From Alphaproteobacteria bacterium (GTDB lineage Bacteria; Pseudomonadota; Alphaproteobacteria; Rs-D84): a DNA stretch of 64,000 nt. The position numbers and the translations under genes were made by a program. This document shows positions 47,284-52,775 of this stretch, piece by piece. Positions within the stretch are counted from its first letter, which is position 1; every line of letters begins with the position of its first letter. The notes below the pieces were generated by a model that worked only from the letters and a program-made list of their open reading frames with translations, ran no database searches and was not told the origin of the DNA. Location: NCBI GenBank assembly GCA_009777955.1, contig WRKW01000002.1:69294-133293 (forward strand), given 5' to 3'.

Positions 47284-50200
47284 TCACATGCCTTGCCACT
47301 GTCCCCATTGATTTTGATTTATAACTGGTTGAGAAGGCATTTGTCCATATTGATTTATTGCCCTTGCAGTATTTTGATGTGCTGGCTGCATTTGCCACTG
47401 GTTTTGGGTAACGTGATTTTGATGATGTTGTACCAAATTATTATTGTATACTGGTTGTTGATTTCTGGAACCGCCCGTTTCAAATCGGTATTTAAATGAT
47501 AATATGCCACCAAATCCCCGACGAATTCCTGTATAATATTCTCCCCCCAATGATAATGACAGGCTGTTTGTTTCTATCCTGATACCCGCTTCGCCTATTC
47601 CTGTCGTACCCGACAACATCGGGGCATCTATTTCGTGACCAAAGATGGTCGCTTTTGCTTCGCCGCCAAATTCATGATCCAGGCTTGCGCCGATATATGG
47701 GCGAAGTTCTTCATTTCCTATGACTATTCGTGCACCTGCCCTTGCCCGTTGCGACAGAACATTATCGAATTTTATTTTTTCACCGGTCGAAATTTGCGCT
47801 TCATTGGCCGTTTGCATCGCTGCAAGGTATTTTATGGATATGTCCAGATCGGATCCATTTTCCATTTTGCTGACATACCCAAGTCCTATGTGCCCACCGT
47901 AATACATGGTTGATGCGTCGAATGATGCGATTTGTCCGGCGGAAAGTCCCGCAAAATCACTGCTTTCATAATTATTATTGACTATTCCGGCGCGGGCAGA
48001 GCCGTCCATATATATACCCCCGTCCAGCCTAATATGGAACAATGCACCACCGCCGTAATAATTTGTGTCGCCCCTGGCCGATACATTATTCGCATTGGAA
48101 AAATCATTAAAAGAATTATAGGTTCCATTGCCGTATTCGGCAAAACCGCCAATTGTAAATCTGCCCATACCGGCGGCCAATCCGGCCATTGCGGATAAGC
48201 TTTTTACATCTATATGCGATCCGGTTTCATAACGGGATTTACCGGCAGATGCCGCGCCAAACGAACCAAATCTTTTACCGCCGCCGCGTTGTGTCGTATG
48301 GACGGATTGTACAGCATTTGTGATTCCGGCCGTGGCAGAAAGGCTTCCGGCTTGATTTAAAGTGGCAACGGTTGCAAGGTTACCTTCGCTGAACGATTTT
48401 GTTTGCGGGTTCAGGCGGCCGGCCGGATCATCTGGGATATTAATATCATTGCCTGTGTCATTGTTTATGTTGGTAATCGTGGCAGTCAATTTATCATTTT
48501 CTTGTGTCAGTTCGTAATCATAAATTAAACTGACACCATGCATAATCATTCCCGTGCTAGAACCAGTGTATAAACTATCGGTTAATGTTCCCGCAGCGAT
48601 AAGATGTATTTTATCCCCGAAATTAAGAATGGGCTTTGCCCCGCTTAAACCTATATGGATTGCGGAATTTGTTATATTTGCATTTCCACTGACAGATAAC
48701 AGGGTATTGTTATTACTTGCGGTGGCGGGTATGAACAAATTCAATGCTGCACCATTAAAATCCATATCACCCGTTATGCTGTTCGACCCGTGGATATTAT
48801 ATACATTTGCCGTAATTATGGAATTCCCCATGACTATATTGCTGTTATTCCGAAGGGTCAGTTCTGCAAGTCGAAGATTTTGCGGGGTATTATAGTCCAA
48901 AATCAAATTACCACCATCAAATGAAAGAACCGTCGGGGATGTGTATGTATTATTAAAATCGGTATCCCATGCCGGTAAAAATAATCCATGATTATATCCA
49001 TTAATATCCGTTATAGAATCATGATTGTCATACTTAACCGACCCCAGTCGCAAAGTCGAATTTAATATACTTACATTCCCCGCATTTATGATCGAATTAT
49101 TGAATTTGACTTCCCCTGTTCCATCGCCCGTCAAGATAATATTAAAATGATTTGGATATTGGATTGCATTAAAAGGAGTACCCGCCGCGCCCAATATATT
49201 ATCATCAAAAACAAAACTTCCGTTATTTATGGTTTTAAATGTCAGGCTTTTGTTTGTGGTGTTTGTACGCACAAAAATGGCATTGTGAATTATCCCGCGA
49301 CTGTCGTCGGTATAATTTCCGCTGAATGAAAAATTGTCATGATCGGCCGTAAAAGTCAAATTTGTTGTTGTGTAGATTGCACCACCAAGAGATAAATCTG
49401 CGGTTGAATGTACATGATTCCCTATAAAATTGCCAGTTATATTCTCGATACGTCCATAATTATTAATAGCACCACCCCCGTTAATATAATCACCCCGGTT
49501 CATAAAGTTTTCGACAAAGTTTCCCGTTATATTCCCAATTGATCCCCAATTGTTAATAGCTGTTTGATTTCCAATGAAATTTCCGACTATATTATCTATA
49601 AGGGCATTTTCTCTGGAATTGCTAATGGAAATTTCATGATTGCCAATAAAGTTTCCTTTTATATTTTTAATTTCTCCAGAGTTATCAATCGCATAATAAT
49701 TTCCTATAAAATCCCCGATAATATTTCTAATATTTCCACGAGTATTGTAAATTCCGCTATTATTTCCGATGAAATCCCCCGTCAAATTATCAATAGTTCC
49801 GTAATAATTGTAAATAGCTATGCTATTGCCTATGAAATCGCCATTTATAAACCCAATAATAGCATTCTCATTATGAATAGCCAGTCCATTGTCTATAAAA
49901 TTACCATTTATACTTCCAATAGCAGCAATGTTATAGTTATAAATAGTTGCACTACCATTACTAATTGTTGCCACGAAATCGCCTGTAATACTTTCGATTG
50001 ATCCAAAATTACAAATCACCCCGCAACTATAATTAATTGCGGTGTTATTCACGAAATCACCGATTATATTACCGATGGAACCGGTATTAAAAATCGCGCT
50101 GCCATGTTCTCCATCATTTGGTAAGTTGCGAAAGTATCCTGTCAAATTACCACCATTCTGATTTGCCGTTATTCTATCCAGATCGACCCCATTGCCCCCG

Positions 50201-50442
50201 GTTGCGTCCAATGTATATTCATAATATACAGGCGTTAAAACACCCGCCACAAATTCATAACTTGTAATCACATTTGTTCCGGGGGCGGCAACCGAAGTGA
50301 ACGATAATGAATATCCGCTATTTATTAGGGATGATCCTGTACCATATAATTTATCCAATGTCGGAACATAATTTTCAAAATCAAATGCGTGGGCACCAGA
50401 TACAAAGCATAACGAAAAAAAAGCCACGAATAATTTTCTCAT
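47284..50442 (-). CDS. Autotransporter (type V secretion) with QN-rich C-terminal tail
   Basis: A 1052-residue surface protein starting at ATG 50442 with AAGGA 6 nt upstream. Signal peptide 1-19 (ending GAHA). The passenger has many about 21-residue repeats with the motif I-x-G-D/N-FIGN followed by IYN or AINN, a beta-helix pattern, then a region like polymorphic autotransporters. A beta-barrel domain covers about residues 740-990 (GGFAEYGNGTYNSF, SISLGGEYYTGIRRGFGG, SFKYRF at its end). Unusually, about 60 residues rich in Gln, Asn and His follow the final barrel strand, whereas autotransporters normally end with an aromatic residue there for BAM recognition. It probably displays a host-contact protein. 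Confidence 0.88.
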   Translation of the reverse strand: MRKLFVAFFSLCFVSGAHAFDFENYVPTLDKLYGTGSSLINSGYSLSFTSVAAPGTNVITSYEFVAGVLTPVYYEYTLDATGGNGVDLDRITANQNGGNLTGYFRNLPNDGEHGSAIFNTGSIGNIIGDFVNNTAINYSCGVICNFGSIESITGDFVATISNGSATIYNYNIAAIGSINGNFIDNGLAIHNENAIIGFINGDFIGNSIAIYNYYGTIDNLTGDFIGNNSGIYNTRGNIRNIIGDFIGNYYAIDNSGEIKNIKGNFIGNHEISISNSRENALIDNIVGNFIGNQTAINNWGSIGNITGNFVENFMNRGDYINGGGAINNYGRIENITGNFIGNHVHSTADLSLGGAIYTTTNLTFTADHDNFSFSGNYTDDSRGIIHNAIFVRTNTTNKSLTFKTINNGSFVFDDNILGAAGTPFNAIQYPNHFNIILTGDGTGEVKFNNSIINAGNVSILNSTLRLGSVKYDNHDSITDINGYNHGLFLPAWDTDFNNTYTSPTVLSFDGGNLILDYNTPQNLRLAELTLRNNSNIVMGNSIITANVYNIHGSNSITGDMDFNGAALNLFIPATASNNNTLLSVSGNANITNSAIHIGLSGAKPILNFGDKIHLIAAGTLTDSLYTGSSTGMIMHGVSLIYDYELTQENDKLTATITNINNDTGNDINIPDDPAGRLNPQTKSFSEGNLATVATLNQAGSLSATAGITNAVQSVHTTQRGGGKRFGSFGAASAGKSRYETGSHIDVKSLSAMAGLAAGMGRFTIGGFAEYGNGTYNSFNDFSNANNVSARGDTNYYGGGALFHIRLDGGIYMDGSARAGIVNNNYESSDFAGLSAGQIASFDASTMYYGGHIGLGYVSKMENGSDLDISIKYLAAMQTANEAQISTGEKIKFDNVLSQRARAGARIVIGNEELRPYIGASLDHEFGGEAKATIFGHEIDAPMLSGTTGIGEAGIRIETNSLSLSLGGEYYTGIRRGFGGILSFKYRFETGGSRNQQPVYNNNLVQHHQNHVTQNQWQMQPAHQNTARAINQYGQMPSQPVINQNQWGQWQGM

Positions 50443-50461: not shown

Positions 50462-50737
50462 TTATTGTATTTTTTCAATTTTTATATCGACGGCGTTTTC
50501 GTCATCGCTGATTTTATAAATTCCATTTTCAATCGTGTTGAAATAGCGTGTGATTTTATTTATCCGCTCTATTTTCTCTGGTTCTGACAGGTAATCAAAA
50601 TCATCCGCAATTTCGTCGGATATTTTTACTATGATCGTAGATTTACGCTTTATATGAAACAGATGATCCATTCCATCAACAATCCCCCGATATTCAAAAA
50701 AATTTTGTTCTAATAATTCGATTAATGTTTTTTTCAT
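50462..50737 (-). CDS. Small hypothetical protein
   Basis: A 91-residue acidic cytosolic protein starting at the ATG at 50737, which has GAGAGAGA 4-11 nt upstream. Composition is rich in Glu, Asp, Ile and Lys (FHIKRKSTIIVKISDEIADDFDYL, EKIERINKITRYF). No known domain recognised. The longer open frame to 50836 would pass through the structured-RNA terminator and was rejected. It lies directly downstream of that RNA and upstream of the autotransporter gene, so it may be controlled by readthrough. Confidence 0.6.
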   Translation of the reverse strand: MKKTLIELLEQNFFEYRGIVDGMDHLFHIKRKSTIIVKISDEIADDFDYLSEPEKIERINKITRYFNTIENGIYKISDDENAVDIKIEKIQ

Positions 50738-50755
50738 ATTCTCTCTCTTTAAATT

Positions 50756-50982
50756 GCAAAAATAACCACCAATCGGGATTGGTGGTCGGGAGAGTTCATA
50801 AATCAGTCTACGATTGATTCCGCTGTCTTCGGGCAAGCCCTATTTTATAACAAGCGGCTCCCCGACCATTAGAATCAGGGATATAACGGTGCGGAAGGCA
50901 CCATCACATCAGATAACGATGCGAATCCGCACCGCGTAGACTGGGCTTATGAAAGCCCCGACCCCGGTGTCTCCACCGGGTC
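50756..50982 (-). ncRNA. Structured RNA candidate, about 227 nt, with terminator
   Basis: On the minus strand the transcript would start at 50982 (promoter TTTACT 51018-51013, 18 nt, TACAAT 50994-50989). Elements in order: a 5'-terminal hairpin (50982-50960, GACCCGGTG with CACCGGGGTC); GGGCTT-TCAT-AAGCCC; a long-range stem (50951-50935 with 50812-50797, core CAGTCTACG/CGTAGACTG); inside it GGTGCGGA/TCCGCACC (50933-50926 with 50895-50888); AGCGG/CCGCT (50857-50853 with 50824-50820). A terminator follows (50786-50765 plus U-tract). GGTCGGGGAG (50867-50858) can also pair with CTCCCGACC (50792-50784), which overlaps the terminator. No match to tmRNA, RNase P, 6S, SRP RNA or a riboswitch I know. 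Confidence 0.65.
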
Positions 50983-51132
50983 GTTTATATTGTATTGTAT
51001 CTGATGCCAACAAGTAAAGTAAAAAATCCCGCCCGAAGCGGAAATGACGGCAACTTTGTTGCCGTTAAATCATATCTGGTGTTATTGCGGGTCACACCGC
51101 GGGGCGGACGAAGTAATCGCTATCAAAAAAAT

Positions 51133-51245: not shown

Positions 51246-52775
51246 TTATCTCCACGTTGATGGTATAGACGCTGCGTCATCCAGATTTTGCCATGCGTTT
51301 CCGCCATAGCAACCATCACCTGCATCTGGCCATTTTTCATACAGGTACTGCCCATCGGATTTTGCAGATGAACCACGAAGTCCGGTATTACCAAAGAATG
51401 TTCGATTGAACATCATGCTTGCCGGGGTGCCGGTTAAATTACCAAACAACCCTTCCGGTATAGAACCTGTTAAACCGCTACAATCATAGAATGTTCGATT
51501 GAACATAGCGCCTGCCGGTGCGCCGGTTAAATTACCAAACAACCCCGCGGGTATAGAACCACTCAAGCCGCTGCAACCATTAAATGTATCCTGGAACATA
51601 CCGGATGCCGGGGCACCAGTTATTCCAGAAAACAACCCTTCCGGTATCGAGATCAAGCCGCTGCAATTTTGAAATGTACCACTGAACATACTGCTTGCCG
51701 GGGCACCGGTTATACCGGAAAACAACCCTTCCGGTATCGAGATCAAGCCGCTGCAACCATTAAATGTATTACCGAACATAGCGGTTGCCGGTGCGCCGGT
51801 TAAATTACCAAACAACCCCGCGGGTATAGAACCACTCAAGCCGCTGCAATTTTGAAATGTACCACTGAACATACTGCTTGCCGGGGCACCAGTTATTCCA
51901 GAAAACAACCCTGCCGGTATCGAAGTCAAGCCGCTACAATTATAAAATGTTTGATAGAACATATTGGTTGCCGGTGCGCCGGTTATTCCAGAAAACAACC
52001 CTGCCGGTATTGAAGTCAAGCCGCTACAATTATAAAATGTTTGATAGAACATACCGTTTGTCGGGGCACCCTGTACGCTGGCAAACAATTCCGGTGGCAT
52101 CGATGTAATTGCGGTATTCCTGAATGTTTGATAAAACCGCGGACTACCACTAGTTGTAGCATTCAATATCGGAAATATTTGTCCCAAATCACCACTGATA
52201 CCGGTCATCTTGGCACGATTTGGATGTGTGGCCGCATGGGCTGAGCTATAAAACGATATCGCTGTTGAGATGGTGGCACTATACGATATAGCCAATCCAC
52301 CGATACCAACAGTGTAATTACCACCGGATATATATGTACATGAATATGTTGTATTTGTTGTATCAGTTCTGTTTATTGTTTGCACATTACCATTACCACA
52401 ATCAATTGTAAAATTACCCTGTGCAGAAAGCTGTATTTCAAAGGTTTCGCCCGCAGTTATATCGGTAAGACTCACAAAGAATGAAGGCTCCACCGGTTCT
52501 GATAGTTTCAAATAATATACTGTATCGTCTATGCTCATACGTATAGTGTCTTCTATCGGTATGGTGGTAAGTCCACCGTAATAGATATTACTATCCCCCG
52601 GAACCTGTACATGAAGATTCTTTTCATTCGCAGGATTCTTGGTGGAATACAATATCGCCGATATTCCTGAACCCGTGCGTAATGTCTTGAATGAAGTGCT
52701 GTATGCGTTTGTTGTAACAAACAATAAAGTTACAGCACAAACAATATTTTGTATAATTTTGTTAAATATAACCAT
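51246..52775 (-). CDS. BspA-like DUF285 surface protein, copy 2
   Basis: A 509-residue paralogue of the protein at 27950-29488. Signal peptide (ending TTNAYS) and the first roughly 190 residues are nearly identical; the about eight DUF285 repeats (IPAGLFSGITGAPA-MF-TF-NCSGL) differ in order and content; the tail YLYEKWPD to ASIPSTWR is conserved again. Several repeats are exact internal duplicates (for example the two successive NCSGLTSIPAGLFSGITGAP units), a sign of recent repeat expansion. It is probably a surface adhesin or antigen. Its promoter (TTACAT 52824-52819, TATAAT 52801-52796) has the same 8-bp inverted repeat as copy 1. Confidence 0.85.
   Translation of the reverse strand: MVIFNKIIQNIVCAVTLLFVTTNAYSTSFKTLRTGSGISAILYSTKNPANEKNLHVQVPGDSNIYYGGLTTIPIEDTIRMSIDDTVYYLKLSEPVEPSFFVSLTDITAGETFEIQLSAQGNFTIDCGNGNVQTINRTDTTNTTYSCTYISGGNYTVGIGGLAISYSATISTAISFYSSAHAATHPNRAKMTGISGDLGQIFPILNATTSGSPRFYQTFRNTAITSMPPELFASVQGAPTNGMFYQTFYNCSGLTSIPAGLFSGITGAPATNMFYQTFYNCSGLTSIPAGLFSGITGAPASSMFSGTFQNCSGLSGSIPAGLFGNLTGAPATAMFGNTFNGCSGLISIPEGLFSGITGAPASSMFSGTFQNCSGLISIPEGLFSGITGAPASGMFQDTFNGCSGLSGSIPAGLFGNLTGAPAGAMFNRTFYDCSGLTGSIPEGLFGNLTGTPASMMFNRTFFGNTGLRGSSAKSDGQYLYEKWPDAGDGCYGGNAWQNLDDAASIPSTWR

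Follow-up and report, generated by a model that had tools for sequence, protein, structure and literature searches.

The window analysed here is a stretch of 64,000 nucleotides from an alphaproteobacterial contig, in which a structured RNA leader of 227 nt occupies positions 50982 to 50756 of the minus strand. The leader lies upstream of a gene for a 91-residue protein (50462..50737, minus strand), an open reading frame with no Pfam family above the cut-off, which is followed by a gene for an autotransporter with an N-terminal signal sequence (47284..50442, minus strand; PF03797, E 2.7e-9), probably the second gene of the operon. This gene order agrees with an earlier note made from the sequence alone; the ATG of the small gene, at 50737, stands about 26 nt past the terminator stem. 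Upstream of the leader, a 509-residue neighbour (51246-52775, minus strand) is made up of repeated CSGLTSIPAGLF-like units and has an N-terminal signal-like sequence; it has no significant match in Pfam, and no copy of the RNA precedes its gene. A promoter-like region, TTTACT and TACAAT separated by 18 nt (50984..51023, minus strand), matches the consensus at 9 of 12 positions. The promoter claimed earlier is present as a site, but the site alone is at chance level (5 found against 3.4 expected in shuffled sequences); across the copies of the element, however, a TATAAT-like hexamer is enriched 5' of the first hairpin (72 of 87 copies, compared with 18 in a control window).

The minimum-energy fold of the 227-nt RNA (-106.4 kcal/mol, z -7.4) is equalled by none of 200 shuffled sequences and includes the 5' hairpin, the long-range stem and the terminator, all of which had been recognised previously. 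Reading 5' to 3' along the minus strand, the hairpin H1 (GACCCGGUG-GAGA-CACCGGGGUC; 50960..50982), defined from the fold and from the reading of copies, carries a GAGA (GNRA) tetraloop, which is GGGA in most other copies. It is followed by the hairpin P5 (GGGGC-TTTCATAA-GCCC; 50943..50959), the loop of which is the 5' strand of a predicted pairing P6, by the 5' strand of a second predicted pairing P4 (AGTCTACG; 50935..50942), and by H2 (50887..50934), a hairpin region in the fold that varies among copies. The core is closed by the helix P1, with its 5' strand GGTCGGGGAG at 50858..50867 and its 3' strand CTCTCCCGACC at 50784..50794, and contains P2 (50820..50857) with the internal loop TATAAAATA/GAA and the cap P2b (GGGCTTGCCC), the hairpin P3 (TCA...TGA; 50803..50817), the loop of which (50805-50812) is the 3' strand of P4, and a linker (TTTATGAA; 50795..50802) that is complementary to the P5 loop and is the 3' strand of P6. 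The intrinsic terminator (GACCACCAAT CCCG ATTGGTGGTT with a U-run; 50757..50787) is supported by its stem energy, the fold and a family-wide overlap with P1; the stem alone amounts to -12.6 kcal/mol, in keeping with the strong terminator of the earlier note. Segment A (TCCCTGATT; 50873..50881) may pair with the P1 5' strand over a 9-bp run with G-U pairs as an anti-core hairpin; this hairpin (segment A:B) was rejected as a conserved element, being enriched in position but overall only moderately above chance.

Comparison of positions 50700-51050 with Rfam gave no match at gathering and none at E<=1. A covariance model of the core, R1, made without RF02221 sequences from outside this order, matches the window at 50781-50870 (89.9 bits), with no second copy found within the window, and matches 106 of the 113 genomes of the same bacterial family, in addition to a second family of the order and 12 of the 142 genomes of a class-wide sample. 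DNA searches yielded three copies in this genome and hits in 31 of the 60 related genomes, while four genomes searched singly with laxer filters gave about 30, 40, 50 and 60 matches, figures that are possibly rounded or lower bounds; a gut alphaproteobacterial genome of one million bases may thus hold as many as about 60 copies of the element. The records found by pattern are named 'Alphaproteobacteria' or 'Rickettsiales' or are Candidatus Enterousia assemblies, many of them from animal guts, and one named Gastranaerophilales is probably a binning error. Copies like that of the window were not found in IMG/VR, plasmid or phage collections.

Covariation among homologues had been proposed earlier as a check on the structure, and the core stems do covary. 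In 97 distinct aligned copies, an alignment that was fitted to R1 and is therefore biased towards the model, 94.4% of the core pair cells are standard, 19 of the 24 core pairs change on both sides and 224 cells show double changes, values reached in none of 500 shuffles; core pairing falls to 39-45% once the partner column is shifted by one. A MAFFT alignment predating R1 leads to the same verdict. The covarying helices are P1 (helix 1), P2 and P2b (helices 2 and 3) and P3 (helix 4). The second pairing proposed in the earlier note, GGTCGGGGAG with CTC(T)CCCGACC, is P1, the closing helix of a conserved core.

In the 5' domain, a perfect complement of at least 8 nt to the P3/linker segment is present in 85 of 108 copies against 5.7 expected, and the P4 5' strands of these 85 copies comprise 79 distinct strings; complementarity amounts to 79% with a copy's own 5' region and 7% with that of another copy. 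A P5 hairpin whose loop complements the linker occurs in 99 of the 108 copies, compared with 31% when the linker of another copy is used, and the P5 stems covary (GGGC/GCCC, GGAC/GTCC, GGGA/TCCC, GTGC/GCAC). Docking was scored by counts of exact complements, whole-duplex energies being too noisy. These counts demonstrate, as predicted pairings, the docking of the 5' domain on the core through P4 and P6, in the window family and in the RF02221 loci described below alike. The long-range stem claimed earlier, although present in the minimum-energy fold, is better read as these two pairings.

An intrinsic terminator is found in 98 of 109 full-length family copies, against 16 in shuffled sequences, and in 86 of the 109 it overlaps the 3' strand of P1 by exactly 4 nt. 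In the window copy, GACC both ends the P1 3' strand and opens the terminator stem; because these four bases are common to both, P1 and the complete terminator exclude each other, and the disruption of the terminator suggested in the earlier note is borne out in this form. Without the shared bases the terminator stem weakens to -3.7 kcal/mol, from -12.6 with them. In the relative L026 they have changed in concert with both partners (TGT in P1, ACA shared, TGT in the terminator), and in L087 their changes are compatible. The overlap recurs in other alphaproteobacterial families, and the terminator is missing in about half of the copies in the other family of the order. In 83 of 103 copies a start codon lies 30-60 nt further 3'. 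When nested pairs only are counted, leaving the docking pseudoknots out, the state holding the terminator is favoured over the P1 state by a median of 11 kcal/mol (88 copies), so that docking, a ligand or a protein would have to assist the ON state. The element was thus found to couple a conserved aptamer-like fold to an expression platform, as in a ligand-responsive attenuator.

The element had been called unassigned, which is correct in that the window copy has no Rfam match, but its core is, by homology traced through its relatives, a distant relative of RF02221 (sRNA-Xcc1). The window copy does not reach the RF02221 gathering threshold of 53 bits and gives no match at E<=1; in the family, the RF02221 model scores 58 bits at best (L026) and matches 34 of 60 related genomes at E<=0.001, and in the reciprocal search R1 recovers RF02221 loci at the same coordinates, with a best E of 4.6e-12. 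The consensus secondary structure of RF02221 is shared, including P1, P2 with its AUAnAAuA/GAA internal loop and capped helix, and P3. A docking 5' domain and a location before a start codon are also common to both. RF02221 occurs above the cut-off in 39 genomes of a 398-genome phylum sample; its loci adjoin start codons, lying just upstream, and carry the 5' domain complement in 44 of 68 cases (2.5 expected) and P5/P6 in 59 of 69, although the docking 5' domain falls outside the 87-position Rfam model. In contrast to the window family, an overlapping terminator is found in 16 of 69 RF02221 loci, compared with 9 in shuffled sequences, and the genes downstream are often antirepressor or SymE genes rather than envelope genes, the encoded proteins including Bro-N, P22 antirepressor, KilA-N, Rha and SymE. 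In the annotated records of phages Aaphi23 and Rac-SA53 the core ends about 40 nt before ant, and in two E. coli prophage regions it precedes KilA-N or antirepressor genes. These observations are evidence for RF02221 itself being a cis leader, of which no description was found for sRNA-Xcc1 in the literature searched, a search of incomplete coverage.

In Xanthomonas, sRNA-Xcc1 was detected by Northern blot and RACE as a discrete RNA of 88 nt (PMC2996969) and, according to papers citing Chen et al. 2011, has been described as a trans-acting small RNA. A survey locates it in integron cassettes of Xanthomonas, where it lies upstream of symE (PMC12444791), and Xylella homologues are expressed, five of seven being clustered (PMC12189769). 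The detection of the 88-nt RNA, the expression in Xylella and the terminator standing before the start codon would suit an independent, trans-acting small RNA with its 3' end at its own terminator, next to a gene with its own or constitutive read-through expression. The earlier note had left such an RNA and a riboswitch-like attenuator side by side; the former is judged unlikely, as nearly all copies lie at a short fixed distance from the start codons of unrelated genes, a plain small RNA would not need the fixed 4-nt overlap between terminator and core helix, and the docking strands differ in nearly every copy and therefore offer no common trans-pairing sequence. The attenuator fits the covarying core, the fixed terminator overlap and the leader position before start codons; the nested-only energies, the copies that lack a terminator and the discrete 88-nt RNA described for RF02221 speak against it. 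The element is probably a 5' leader that acts in cis and uses transcription attenuation to control read-through into the envelope operon behind it. Sequence comparison establishes that the core covaries, that the 5' domain pairs with it, that the overlap is fixed, that the copies stand before genes and that they form a multi-copy family.

The C4 antisense RNA of phages P1 and P7 (RF01695; also c4-2, RF02944) is a leader upstream of a phage antirepressor, with loops complementary to the downstream RBS region. Many RF02221 loci resemble it in having a loop complement to the downstream RBS region. A strand complementary to the P3 loop/linker recurs in these loci, typically over the SD-start region and often repeating the 5' domain strand (at least 8 nt in 19 of 68 loci against 2.4 expected; for example GGAGACACAAGCCATG in L202), as would be anticipated if P3 loop and linker paired with the ribosome-binding region in cis or, once processed, in trans. 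For the element studied here such a C4-like antisense leader is improbable: downstream complements of at least 8 nt are near chance in the window family (11 of 108 copies against 5.2), the window copy has none of at least 7 nt, and no RF01695 or RF02944 match was obtained at family or RF02221 elements. In the window family the terminator seems to have replaced the RBS-region complement. The only c4-2-like match, below threshold (L194:2890-2958), occurs in the same locus as an RF02221 element preceding a phage antirepressor, away from that element.

The three copies in this genome precede unrelated genes, encoding the 91-residue protein and autotransporter, an exported beta-barrel-like protein, and a DNA cytosine methylase, respectively. 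The third (L005; G000:C5:30500-34000) lies before the methylase gene and adjoins a seeming replication protein and a seeming small toxin-like gene, possibly in a mobile element. Across the family, Pfam analysis of 91 downstream proteins revealed glycosyltransferases, outer-membrane beta-barrels, PMP repeats, surface antigen, methylase and thymidylate synthases, and signal-peptide-like proteins, as judged by a crude purpose-made predictor, make up 67 of 103 downstream proteins against 51 of 129 ORFs taken from the same loci as controls (Fisher p 1.3e-4). The regulon is therefore enriched for, and not restricted to, envelope and exported products. The order of promoter, structured RNA, terminator and gene is identical to that of a type III toxin-antitoxin system (RNA, terminator, toxin gene), and SymE is found downstream of some RF02221 loci; the diversity of downstream genes, which do not belong to one toxin family, makes an RNA antitoxin highly improbable.

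Under the favoured attenuation by a cis-acting leader, transcription would start just 5' of H1, and the 5' domain (H1, P5) would dock through P4, in which the 8 nt directly 3' of P5 pair with the loop of P3, and through P6, in which the P5 loop pairs with the linker. The sRNA-Xcc1-like core, closed by P1, would then block the terminator when folded. We infer that a stabilised P1 turns the gene ON by blocking the terminator and that the unassisted leader terminates (OFF). The leading guess is that a metabolite or protein at the conserved internal loop (U/C)AUAnAAYA / GAA stabilises P1; c-di-GMP was considered and is unlikely as the signal, GGDEF being absent from this genome. In transcriptional ON riboswitches of the adenine pbuE type, the helix that closes the aptamer overlaps directly with the 5' arm of the terminator. 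The window leader is similar in that P1 overlaps the terminator 5' arm, but differs in its larger, pseudoknotted 5' domain and in having no purine-riboswitch match in Rfam. More tentatively, the element may represent an orphan riboswitch class, in which an Xcc1-type aptamer (about 200 nt with the docked 5' domain, with phages among its carriers) senses one small molecule or cofactor and, having multiplied to tens of copies per genome in gut alphaproteobacteria, controls a surface-protein regulon through the directly overlapping terminator; RF02221 as a whole would then be such a sensor and not a trans-acting sRNA.

What is new here is a terminator-bearing variant of the known RNA family RF02221, together with evidence for a cis-leader role of that family. 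Known in Xanthomonas as an sRNA that acts in trans, this family appears in genomes across Pseudomonadota as a cis leader of greater length, and in reduced-genome gut alphaproteobacteria it is repeated up to tens of times before genes for envelope and surface proteins. If the switch proves real, one shared signal would govern an entire regulon of surface proteins in gut bacteria that are mostly uncultured.

Some variation in the core was also observed. Several cores in other alphaproteobacterial families (L285-L293) carry an AUGUYCAA internal loop instead of AUAnAAYA, the other architecture being kept. One genome (G013; L114-L125) contains dozens of instances of a short core subtype of 73-76 nt, most of them lacking a terminator that overlaps the core (a terminator-like site in 4 of 19, against 2 in shuffled sequences); these short cores are often trailed by similar sequence and precede paralogous small proteins.
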